From positions 1-64,000 of the forward strand of contig NZ_QJTI01000001.1 in NCBI RefSeq assembly GCF_003217325.1: a stretch of 64,000 nucleotides of DNA, read 5' to 3'. This DNA is from Rhodopseudomonas faecalis (GTDB lineage: Bacteria > Pseudomonadota > Alphaproteobacteria > Rhizobiales > Xanthobacteraceae). Positions 4,496-8,764 of the stretch are shown here, piece by piece; within the stretch, counting starts at the first letter, position 1, and each line of letters begins with the position of its first letter. The notes below the pieces were generated by a model, which saw nothing but the letters and a program-made list of their open reading frames with translations, searched no databases and had not been told where the DNA came from. Made by a program: the position numbers and the translations under genes.

Positions 4496-5512
4496 TCAGA
4501 CGTCGCTGTGGGCGTGCACGCCGAGTTCGCCGCGCGCGGTGATGCCGAGCCGGGCGAACAACTGACGGTCCTTGCTGTCGCCCGGATTGGGCGTGGTCAG
4601 CAGCTGCTCGCCGATGAAGATCGAGTTGGCGCCGGCCAGGAAGCACAGCGCCTGCATCTCGTCGCTCATCGCGGTGCGGCCAGCGGCGATACGCACGTCG
4701 GACTTCGGCATCATGATGCGCGCCAGCGCGATGGTGCGCACGAATTCGAACGGGTCGATCGGCGTCGCGGTTTCCGCGATCGGCGTGCCTTCGATCGGGA
4801 TCAGCATGTTGATCGGCACGCTCTCCGGATGCTGCGGCAGGTTGGCGAGGGTGCGCAGCATCTCGACGCGGTCGGTCGGCTTTTCGCCCAGGCCAAGAAT
4901 GCCGCCGCAACACACTTTGATGCCGGCGTCATGCACCTTGTTTACGGTGTCGATCCGGTCGGCGAAGCTGCGGGTCGAGACCACGTTCGGATAGAATTCT
5001 TCCGAGGTGTCGATGTTGTGGTTGTAGTAATCGAGGCCGGCGTCTTTGAGTTGCTTGGCCTGGTCATCGGTGAGCATGCCGAGCGTCACGCAAGCTTCCA
5101 TGCCGAGCGCCTTCACGCCCTTCACCATCTCGATCACCGGAGCCATGTCGCGCTCCTTGGGCTCGCGCCAGGCCGCGCCCATGCAGTAGCGGGTGGCGCC
5201 GGCGTCGCGCGCCGCCTTGGCGCTCTCGATCACCTTCTTCGGGTCCATCAGCTTGGAGGCGGGCAGGGCGGTGTCGTGATGGGCGGACTGGCTGCAATAG
5301 CCGCAATCCTCGGCGCAGCCGCCGGTCTTGACGTTGAGCAGCTGATTGCACTGCACTTCGTTCGGATTGAAGCTCTGGCGGTGAATGGTCTGCGCCCGGA
5401 ACATCAGGTCCGCGAACGGCGCGTGATAGATCGCCGCGGCTTCCTCGCGGGTCCAGTCGTGGCGGATGGTCGGGGTGGCGTCGGCCAAGGCCGGCATGTC
5501 GATCGAGTTCAA
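4496..5512 (-). CDS. bioB: Biotin synthase
   Basis: BioB is the radical-SAM enzyme that inserts sulfur into dethiobiotin, the last step of biotin synthesis. The 4Fe-4S ligands appear as CAEDCGYC (C66, C70, C73 in the numbering used here), followed by SQS. The downstream signature VRIAAGR also fits. The start is set at a TTG at 5512 because GGGAGCC lies six to eight bases upstream, whereas the in-frame ATG at 5497 has no ribosome binding site. This gives 338 residues, normal for BioB. The gene is about 13 kb from bioFDA and on the other strand. No BioR-type operator was recognised upstream. Confidence 0.93.
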
Positions 5513-5775
5513 GCGGGGCTCCCTCGCGGCGATGGTGCGGTTTACCGTCAGCCATAGTGGGTTTCCGGCCTCGGAGAAACCCCAATTCCCAAGGGAAATG
5601 GCCGCCCGGCGCATGGTTTAGGTCAGGTGTTCTGACGCTTTACCGCGCGCCAGCCGCCCGTTTTTGCCGTTGCGGATCGCTGCGATTGTCGTTTACAAGA
5701 ATTGTTGAGGCGCATCGCGTCGGGCAACGAACCGTCAACGGTTCTGTCGGACGATGTGCCGTGAAGGTGTAGGCA

Positions 5776-5901
5776 ATGCTGATTCGCAGCGCACAGACTG
5801 AATTCGACGCGGAGACGGTGACCACCGTCGGTTCCGGCGCGATTTCGGCTGCGACCCTGGCCTCCCTGCTGCTTGGCGGGCTGCTTCTTATTCGCCCCTG
5901 A
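5776..5901 (+). CDS. Leucine-rich 41-residue ORF, candidate leuA leader peptide
   Basis: This short ORF starts at an ATG with AAGG eight bases upstream and ends at TGA, 108 bp before leuA. Its C-terminal part reads LASLLLGGLLLIRP, with seven Leu codons in eleven followed by Ile. That is what a transcription- or translation-attenuation leader for a leucine biosynthesis gene should look like. The stop codon lies in the left arm of an inverted repeat (5895-5902 with 5930-5937). The alternative is a small one-pass membrane protein, because residues 18-39 are continuously hydrophobic. Function as a leader is inferred from position and codon content. Confidence 0.55.
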   Translation: MLIRSAQTEFDAETVTTVGSGAISAATLASLLLGGLLLIRP

Positions 5902-5978
5902 GGGCCGTCTGGGCGATCACGCCTGGGCACTCAGGGGATTTGCACCATCCTCCATCCAGCCTGTTTTAGCGCCCGCCA
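5874..5978 (+). promoter_or_regulatory. Candidate leuA attenuator structure
   Basis: Two nested perfect pairings are visible upstream of leuA. An inner hairpin cccctgag/ctcagggg (5895-5902, 5930-5937) overlaps the stop codon of the leucine-rich ORF. An outer pairing tggcgggc/gcccgcca (5874-5881, 5971-5978) would sequester its Leu codons. A ribosome paused on Leu codons would block the outer pairing. No clear U-tract follows either stem, so classical rho-independent attenuation is not proven; control at the level of translation is also possible. Confidence 0.4.
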
Positions 5979-6009
5979 CGGTGCGCATCCGATCAAAGGA
6001 ATTTTGCAT

Positions 6010-7575
<1,566 letters not shown>

Positions 7576-7608
7576 CAGTGTCGAATGGTCGCAGCAATAA
7601 CTAGCGAG

Positions 7609-7637
7609 ACGCAGCGCTTCGGCGCTGCGTTTTTTTT
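7609..7637 (+). terminator. Rho-independent terminator after leuA
   Basis: A perfect 9-bp stem, acgcagcgc/gcgctgcgt, with a stable ttcg-type tetraloop, is followed directly by a run of eight T. Confidence 0.92.
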
Positions 7638-7759
7638 CTGCACTGCAGTAGGAACGAAAAGCCCCTGCTAACGGGCAATGGTATTTGCAAGCGAGTGTCT
7701 GTAAGAGTGCGAACGAGTTGGAGCGGGTAGGGCCGCTCCAAAGCTGACTGGGAGGTCAA

Positions 7760-8764
7760 ATGCGCAAGTTGATTTTGGCCGCGGCGTCGGTCGCGGTTCT
7801 GGCCATGGTGGCGCCGGCGGCGGCGCAGCAGCCGATCGTAATTAAATTCAGCCACGTGACGGCACCGAACACCCCGAAGGGGCTGGCTGCCGACAAGTTC
7901 AAGGAACTGGCGGAGAAGTACACCGAGGGCAAGGTCAAGGTCGAAGTCTATCCGAACTCCCAGCTCTATAAGGACAAGGAAGAACTCGACGCGCTGCAGC
8001 TCGGTGCGGTGCAGATGCTGGCGCCGTCGATCTCGAAGTTCGGCCCCGCGGGCGTCAAGGAATTCGAGGTGTTCGATCTGCCCTATATCCTGCCGGACAT
8101 TGCGGCGCTGCGTAAGGTCACCAACGGCCCGGTCGGCGCCAAGCTGTTCAAGCTGCTGGACGCCAAGGGCATGACCGGTCTCGCTTATTGGGACAACGGC
8201 TTCAAGATCATGAGCGCCAACAAGAAGCTGATCGCGCCGGACGACTACAAGGGTCTGAAGTTCCGCATCCAGTCGTCGAAGGTGCTGGACGCCCAGTTCC
8301 GCTCGCTCGGCGCGATCCCACAGGTGATGGCGTTCTCGGAAGTGTACCAGGCGTTGCAGACCGGCGTGGTCGACGGCCAGGAGAACACCCCGTCGAACAT
8401 GTACACCCAGAAGATGCACGAGGTGCAGAAGTACACCACCGTGACCAACCACGGCTACATTGGCTACGCGGTGATCGTGAACAAGAAGTTCTGGGACGGC
8501 GTGCCGGCTGAGCTTCGCACCCAGCTCGACAAGGCGATGGCCGAAGCCACCGAATACGGCAACAGCCAGTCGCAGAAGGAAAACGACGAAGCGCTTGAGG
8601 AGATGAAGAAGTCCGGCAAGACCGAGATCATCACCCTGACCGCCGAGCAGAACGCCGCGATGCGCAAGGCGATGGCGCCGGTCTATGACGAAGTCGGCAA
8701 TCGCGTCGGCAAGGCGCTGATCGAGGAATTCCTCAAGGAAAGCGGCGGCGGCCCGGCCAAGTAA
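7760..8764 (+). CDS. TRAP transporter solute-binding protein (DctP family)
   Basis: This 334-residue periplasmic protein captures an organic acid for the TRAP permease encoded just downstream. A Sec signal peptide occupies about residues 1-22, ending in APAAAQ. The mature domain shows the DctP-family pattern, including the FRIQSSKVLDAQFRSLGA helix region and VDGQENTPSN, where the conserved Arg contacts the ligand carboxylate. The ATG is preceded by GGGAGG. A hairpin between this gene and the permease genes probably keeps the binding protein more abundant than the permease. The substrate is not determined; C4-dicarboxylates are the commonest guess for the family. Confidence 0.9.
   Translation: MRKLILAAASVAVLAMVAPAAAQQPIVIKFSHVTAPNTPKGLAADKFKELAEKYTEGKVKVEVYPNSQLYKDKEELDALQLGAVQMLAPSISKFGPAGVKEFEVFDLPYILPDIAALRKVTNGPVGAKLFKLLDAKGMTGLAYWDNGFKIMSANKKLIAPDDYKGLKFRIQSSKVLDAQFRSLGAIPQVMAFSEVYQALQTGVVDGQENTPSNMYTQKMHEVQKYTTVTNHGYIGYAVIVNKKFWDGVPAELRTQLDKAMAEATEYGNSQSQKENDEALEEMKKSGKTEIITLTAEQNAAMRKAMAPVYDEVGNRVGKALIEEFLKESGGGPAK

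Follow-up and report, generated by a model that had tools for sequence, protein, structure and literature searches.

A leucine-codon leader with a conserved stop-codon hairpin precedes leuA in many Alphaproteobacteria and suggests ribosome-mediated attenuation

Leucine synthesis begins with leuA, and we found the same leader element in front of this gene in Rhodopseudomonas faecalis and in many related bacteria. It combines a small upstream open reading frame (uORF) ending in rare leucine codons with a hairpin whose stem includes the stop codon of this frame. Our results suggest that the element is probably a leucine-responsive, ribosome-mediated attenuator with a conserved stop-codon hairpin and a lineage-specific output, working without an intrinsic terminator. 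Judging from its sequence, the leader would place leuA under the control of leucine. The element was analysed in 64,000 nucleotides of R. faecalis (contig NZ_QJTI01000001.1, positions 1 to 64,000, hereafter the window) and in the upstream regions of leuA in other genomes.

The leader reading frame and its distribution

The uORF covers positions 5776-5901 of the + strand, has 41 codons with a TGA stop at 5899-5901, and lies just upstream of leuA (6010-7575, + strand), which is a good match to 2-isopropylmalate synthase. The predicted leader peptide is MLIRSAQTEFDAETVTTVGSGAISAATLASLLLGGLLLIRP and the frame ends in CTG CTT CTT ATT CGC CCC TGA. The leucine-rich frame reported before leuA in the preliminary description is real: 7 of the 11 codons at 5857-5889 (+ strand; codons -14 to -4, counted back from the stop) encode leucine, and a near-invariant stretch, CTT A...GC CCC (5887-5898, + strand), stands directly 5' of the stop. 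The gene divergent to the leader is bioB (4496-5614, - strand), and a DctP-type TRAP solute-binding gene follows leuA (7760-8764, + strand).

The element is widespread. Our leuA sample included 110 loci: the window's genome and its relatives contributed 30 and named loci made up the other 80, with some genomes present in both sets. An ORF ending in CTT, two codons, CCC and a stop was found upstream of leuA in 107 of the 110 loci, the window's included, and all 107 (96 of them distinct) had the full seven-pair complement of CCCC plus stop downstream. Two loci (L098, L100) lack such an ORF end upstream of leuA and a third (L027) has TGG for the stop; these three rows were dropped. Codons were then counted in 121 distinct loci, left after the removal of duplicates from 135. 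The score used to pick ORFs favoured leucine and a proline codon, not CTT or CCC as such, and loci added later were picked by patterns with CT[TA] and a stop, so that their counts at codons -4 and -1 are conditioned.

In all 121 loci the frame runs open through at least the 15 codons that precede its stop; the other two frames do so in 73 and 97. Leucine occupies codon -4 in all 121 loci, codon -6 in 117, codon -5 in 110, codon -7 in 79 and codon -10 in 78. Codon -4 is CTT in 120 of the 121, and in all of the 107 loci chosen without the CTT pattern; in L140, CTAA replaces CTTA. Codon -1 is CCC (proline) in every locus, codon -2 is mostly NGC whichever residue results (Arg, Cys, Ser or Gly), and the stops are TGA (112), TAG (6) and TAA (3). 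Codons -5 and -6 stay leucine while their third base drifts. The codon used is a rare one: CTT makes up 3.2% of 3110 leucine codons in leuA genes and 48% of 431 at leader codons -5 to -10, an enrichment of about 15-fold. Hence, codons -4, -1 and -2 appear to be under RNA constraint and codons -5 and -6 under codon constraint. A leader frame rich in codons for the end product of the pathway is thus present, and conservation at the level of codons points to its translation. The preliminary description also considered that the frame might be conserved as a membrane protein with other hydrophobic residues in place of leucine, which is at odds with leucine at codon -6 in 117 of 121 loci. No NCBIfam or Pfam model matched the leader peptide of the window or any of three others (two of them also tried in Pfam), and the N-terminal parts of the leader peptides listed vary widely among genera. 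The A that follows the last CUU (A5890 in the window) is near-invariant in homologues, where its codon specifies Ile, Ser, Thr, Met or Arg; a search by eye found no partner for it.

The long leucine run is not universal across the class, because codon -5 is often CGA in class-wide loci (22 of 36). CGA is itself rare in leuA (44 of 3061 arginine codons), and these other lineages place a different rare codon between two leucine codons. The order CUU CGA CUU A occurs in several class-wide loci; examples with CGA at -5 are L149, L152, L154, L161 and L210.

A covariance model of the element found one strong copy in the window's genome (74.1 bits, the next best match scoring 19.8 bits). At E<=0.01, with E-values that are rough, it matched 73 of 289 alphaproteobacterial genomes, with one copy in each, and leuA was downstream at all 29 best loci fetched among these 73 matches, the window not counted, at 77-274 nt from the element in the 28 loci measured. 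In a phylum sample of 299 genomes, 51 matched, all of them Alphaproteobacteria, and none outside this class; family f24, which belongs to the window's order, had no match in its 15 genomes listed in this sample. A leuA gene was found at E<=1e-120 in 75 of 143 class genomes, and 36 of the 66 class leuA loci examined passed a strict test of motif plus helix. Some of the loci failing this test still score weakly with the covariance model, and 14 of the 30 failing loci come from genomes no larger than 2 Mb. A second LeuA-like gene (G000, contig C2, 292731-294317) is 31% identical and has a LeuA_dimer domain; its contig has no match to the model. A comparison of window positions 4500-8000 with Rfam gave no leader match at E up to 10, and 20 other loci gave only three tRNAs at gathering scores.

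The stop-codon hairpin

The inverted repeat noted over the stop codon in the preliminary description was confirmed. In the window, CCCCTGAG (5895-5902) pairs with CTCAGGGG (5930-5937) to form P1, a helix of 8 bp that includes the stop codon. P1 closes a hairpin at 5895-5937, which continues with P2 (5904-5906/5926-5928), a bulge of 3 nt (5907-5909) and P3 (5910-5915/5920-5925), all on the + strand; the covariance-model match of 74.1 bits spans 5884-5940. The predicted energy of the 43-nt hairpin is -27.5 kcal/mol; for dinucleotide shuffles it is -17.6 (sd 2.8), and 3 in 500 of them are equally stable. The stability of the whole leader of 245 nt is unremarkable (z -0.35, with 68 of 200 shuffles being as good). 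Since only the local hairpin stands out, the signal is carried by this hairpin and by the codons, not by the stability of the leader as a whole.

The hairpin also covaries. In an alignment of 67 non-redundant cores (67 of 68, L103 having been excluded by hand), its positions pair in 93.2% of cases, against 87.4% with shuffled partners, and 11 of the 17 pairs show changes on both sides, where 4.6 are expected and none of 500 shuffles reaches this number. These shuffles ignore relatedness, for which sliding the partners by 1-3 columns allows in part; the slides lower pairing to at most 56%. Covariation was read from this alignment and not from one fitted to the covariance model. The stop codon changes together with its complement (UGA-UCA, UAA-UUA, UAG-CUA or, by wobble, UUA). 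Two loci (L190, L195) have a compensated CCTCTGAG/CTCAGAGG helix, in which CCTC replaces the otherwise constant CCCC and the arm reads AGAGG. In L027, where TGA has become TGG, a G-U pair preserves the helix and the end of the ORF lies three codons further on; in this case the helix may be more important than the position of the stop.

The alignment proposed in the preliminary description as a check thus yields conserved leucine codons with synonymous drift, and compensatory changes in the stop hairpin. The second pairing of that description, an outer one over the leucine codons, fared differently. This pairing (about 5874-5881 with 5971-5978, + strand) is present in the minimum-energy fold of 5776-6020 and is absent when a shorter stretch that stops just within leuA is folded. 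Among 43 related leaders, only three (the window, L002 and L016) can form 7 or 8 of its 8 pairs; its three innermost pairs are possible in 35-39 of the 43, but these columns barely vary and carry little information. Conservation supports the stop hairpin and not the outer pairing. The reading of this region as an attenuation layout is accordingly upheld by the conserved leucine codons, the open frame and the covarying stop hairpin, and the outer pairing lacks such support.

From a paused ribosome to leuA expression

We propose the following model. When charged leucine tRNA is low, the ribosome would pause at the rare CUU codons of the uORF. The leading edge of a ribosome lies about 12 nt past its A site. 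With codon -4 in the A site this edge would lie over CCCC, and a ribosome paused at codon -4 or -5 would cover this strand of the stop hairpin (strand 1) and block its pairing, which could account both for the starting point of the helix and for codon -4 being more constant than the others. The 3' arm of the hairpin (strand 2) would then be free to pair with a stretch of the C-rich linker (strand 3), hiding the linker, and leuA would be expressed. When leucine is ample, the ribosome would finish at UGA and depart, the stop hairpin would form and the C-rich linker would be exposed, leading to lower expression, most likely because Rho terminates transcription ahead of leuA. Elsewhere in the class, pairing of the leucine codons with the leuA Shine-Dalgarno sequence may serve as the output, instead or in addition. 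Apart from the terminator, whose place Rho or this pairing would take, the scheme follows classical attenuation. We infer the waiting ribosome, its footprint, the response to leucine and the use of Rho, which is the least supported step of the model. A broader proposal, which we make tentatively and regard as rather unlikely, is that the near-invariant CUU at codon -4, one footprint before the stop-codon helix, is a fixed sensor whose outputs were swapped among lineages: sequestration of the Shine-Dalgarno by leucine codons in many of them, and occlusion of a Rho site by the 3' arm in the Bradyrhizobium-like ones.

The most serious competitor of this model, to which we give somewhat less than an even chance, is translational attenuation of the actinobacterial LEU type. 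Here, the leucine codons pair with the leuA Shine-Dalgarno, the paused ribosome frees the latter, and the hairpin merely juxtaposes the strands. For the six nucleotides of codons -6 and -5, 23 of 118 loci do have an exact complement downstream, where permuted leaders give 6.2 and none of 500 permutations reaches this count (the 118 result from strict duplicate removal; with duplicates the count was 27 of 142). Fourteen of the 23 complements are no more than 24 nt away from the assigned start of leuA, and leader and downstream words change together: CTTCTC/GAGAAG (11 loci), CTTCGA/TCGAAG (5), CTGCTT/AAGCAG (2) and five more once each. In both groups outside the window's lineage, duplexes of leucine codons and Shine-Dalgarno are better than those with swapped leaders (p=5e-5 and 2e-3), bearing in mind that group labels were given by eye from named records, that membership was assigned by hand and that all our tests count related loci as separate. 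Yet, in the window's own group these duplexes are no better than shuffles (12 of 35), and the window's Shine-Dalgarno, AAAGGA at 5995-6000 (+ strand), is predicted to be mostly free (0.72 unpaired). Tests based on folding do not distinguish real from shuffled leaders either: predicted accessibility of the Shine-Dalgarno is lower with the leader than with the leader masked (52 of 77 and 20 of 27 loci), but within groups native and shuffled leaders do not differ (42 of 77, p=0.2; 14 of 27, p=0.18). This result also counts against the model that we favour, as does the lack of any change in this accessibility when strand 1 is masked instead of the hairpin being left free (45 of 97, p=0.43). Of the 28 loci with CGA at codon -5, 5 have a complement, each of them with CTT at codon -6, and none of the 11 with CTG has one. 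Finally, the excess of complements peaks at leader positions -20..-13, and there is a weaker one at -14..-7 (5-6 against 1.5-2.8) for which the LEU-type mechanism does not account.

We also considered, and rejected, a pairing between the 5' half of the hairpin and the start of leuA, which reaches -25.5 kcal/mol in the window but is no better with own than with swapped partners (52 of 99 loci, p=0.36). In the window, CUGGGCGAUCA (5909-5919) is nearly perfectly complementary to the start of leuA, AUGACCGCCCAG (6010-6021); this match ranks second of 99 and is not conserved, and it could hide the window's start codon. A folding of the window with the ribosome at successive positions was dominated by pairing with the coding start of leuA and was left unused.

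In the attenuator model that we favour, the output in the window's lineage depends on the linker between hairpin and leuA (5938-6009, + strand). It is rich in C and poor in G (38% and 18% in the window, the last 12 nt omitted) and might be a Rho-loading stretch. C exceeds G in 95 of 120 linkers, in 49 of 121 stretches further upstream and in 14 of 29 control flanks of the window; C-richness is a weak sign of Rho. Strand 3 (5959-5983, + strand) is the part of the linker able to pair with the 3' arm, at -16.5 kcal/mol in the window, which is weaker than the mean of its group (-20.3). Across the loci kept for pairing tests, from which we removed those whose arm could not be recognised or whose linker was very short or very long, strand 2 and linker pair at -18.2 kcal/mol against -15.9 for dinucleotide shuffles (p=5e-9, own pairing lower in 76 of 101), and they also do better than reversed linkers (p=2e-6, 68 of 101). 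Own pairing is better than the shuffle mean in 32 of 35 loci of the window's group, in 31 of 43 other loci with a consensus arm and in 15 of 27 with divergent arms. Own partners are hardly better than swapped ones (p=0.48 overall; p=0.047, 0.59 and 0.11 by group), and thus this pairing lacks support from covariation, a result that near-invariance of the two sides would lead one to expect. Own pairing is worse than swapped by 3.1 kcal/mol in 29 divergent loci; the interaction term of that comparison is open to a floor effect and was left aside. The two structures would exclude each other in this model; covariation backs the stop hairpin, and shuffle tests, not covariation, back the strand 2:linker alternative. 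A further candidate, pairing of the 27-nt leucine-codon stretch with the linker, was rejected: it beats mononucleotide shuffles in 73 of 120 loci, and dinucleotide shuffles in 21 of 27 divergent loci but in only 35 of 74 of the consensus group.

The order of strands 1, 2 and 3 would also suit classical transcription attenuation, with an intrinsic terminator formed by a local hairpin, P4 (GCGC...GCGC, 5969-5986, + strand), or in some species by the stop hairpin itself. P4 is a family-level feature suitably placed between strand 3 and the Shine-Dalgarno. In addition, at least five T occur in the 8 nt after the stop hairpin in 4 of 121 loci (L002, L072, L079, L083), four T follow it in 12, and the window's nearest relative (L002) has T5 directly after it; L191 has rebuilt a stop-codon hairpin of other sequence, followed by ATTTTT, which resembles an intrinsic terminator. 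We nevertheless consider this mechanism improbable. No T run follows P4, the T5 of L002 is absent from the window, which has T3 only, and fewer than four T follow the hairpin in 105 of the 121 loci. A simple scan of 5550-6100 (+ strand) found two terminator-like sites, before the ORF (5669-5686) and over the leucine codons (5865-5880), where chance would give 0.8. From the end of the ORF to leuA it found none, in line with the preliminary description, which had seen no clear U-run terminator. Such sites occur in 3 of 121 linkers (0-1 in shuffles), and linkers alone are no more structured than shuffles (own lower in 45 of 101). The window's genome seems to use intrinsic terminators, because a GC hairpin with T8 follows leuA (7610-7637).

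The hairpin might instead be a site for protein binding or for mRNA stability, for example a 5' end left by RNase E cutting at CUUA, with the uORF being incidental. The very strong conservation of CUUA....CCCC, of P2 and of the bulge, which an attenuator explains incompletely, speaks for such a role, but the selection for leucine codons and the open frame require translation, and we hold this explanation to be unlikely too.

Proline before the stop, found in all 121 loci (the picking score favoured proline), recalls ribosome-arrest peptides of the TnaC or RAPP kind, in which the nascent chain stalls the ribosome. Yet, only CCC is used, although leuA genes prefer CCG (817 against 494), NGC is kept at codon -2 while its residue varies, and in 4 of 36 class loci proline is replaced by leucine (CTC) with the helix held by a GU pair or by compensation. 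All three features imply that the constraint acts on the RNA. The conserved C-terminal peptide with proline that defines TnaC and RAPP is not seen here, which leaves an arrest peptide very unlikely and led us to reject it as a general mechanism. Least credible of all is a programmed frameshift at CUU-A that would couple the uORF to leuA with the hairpin as stimulator, since, although a stem starts five nt after CUU-A and the window's +1 frame reaches the ATG of leuA, these frames are not kept across loci (leuA is reached by the +1 frame in 39 of 99 and by the -1 frame in 25 of 99), which rules it out as a general mechanism.

Known systems and implications for leuA control

The enterobacterial leu attenuator (leuL) has tandem rare leucine codons, a hairpin round the end of the leader and an alternative downstream pairing, and it uses CUA as the rare codon. 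The leader of leuA shares rare tandem leucine codons, a hairpin at the end of the leader ORF and a possible alternative pairing downstream with it. It differs in using CUU instead of CUA, in having no Rfam match and in the intrinsic terminator, which was found neither before leuA in the window nor in more than 3 of 121 linkers. Because no U-run terminator follows, the enterobacterial mechanism cannot be carried over unchanged, as the preliminary description had suspected.

Among known systems, the LEU element of Actinobacteria (Seliverstov et al. 2005, PMC1262725) comes closest; its authors describe a conserved pseudoknot. As outlined there, it also has a uORF with a leucine run before leuA, which we observe here, structured RNA between the two and no terminator. 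Its leucine run can pair with the leuA Shine-Dalgarno, and our data support such a pairing in other alphaproteobacteria and not in the window's group. The pseudoknot in that outline contrasts with the hairpin containing the stop codon found here. The C-rich linker has a parallel in Sinorhizobium meliloti, where, according to the accessible sections of PMC12218461, a Rho-dependent attenuator lies between a uORF and a DUF1127 gene, with a stretch of 45 nt (38% C, 18% G) after the uORF stop. Gene and signal are different there, and these sections present neither leucine codons nor a stop-codon hairpin. The ilv leader of Caulobacter, a branched-chain amino acid leader peptide presented as transcription attenuation in the available text of PMC4117421, comes from the same bacterial class but belongs to another operon, and the word leuA is absent from this text.

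Amino-acid leader-peptide attenuators are thus a known kind, of which a leucine variant with a stop-codon hairpin may be new. An ilv leader in alphaproteobacteria was reportedly described by Vitreschak and colleagues in 2004. Our literature search found no description of an alphaproteobacterial leuA leader, which could still be in print, most likely in Vitreschak 2004 or Lopatovskaya 2010. The accessible parts of PMC12218461, PMC11109978, PMC4117421, PMC10117765, PMC4833913, PMC13236596, PMC1273637 and PMC9426467 do not describe it.

The same search gave no account of the control of leuA in Alphaproteobacteria, be it in rhizobia, methylotrophs, Caulobacter or others. A conserved leader that is absent from Rfam and has a clear anatomy is directly testable. 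It offers a natural series in which to follow ribosome-mediated sensing without an intrinsic terminator and the evolutionary change of the output arm.
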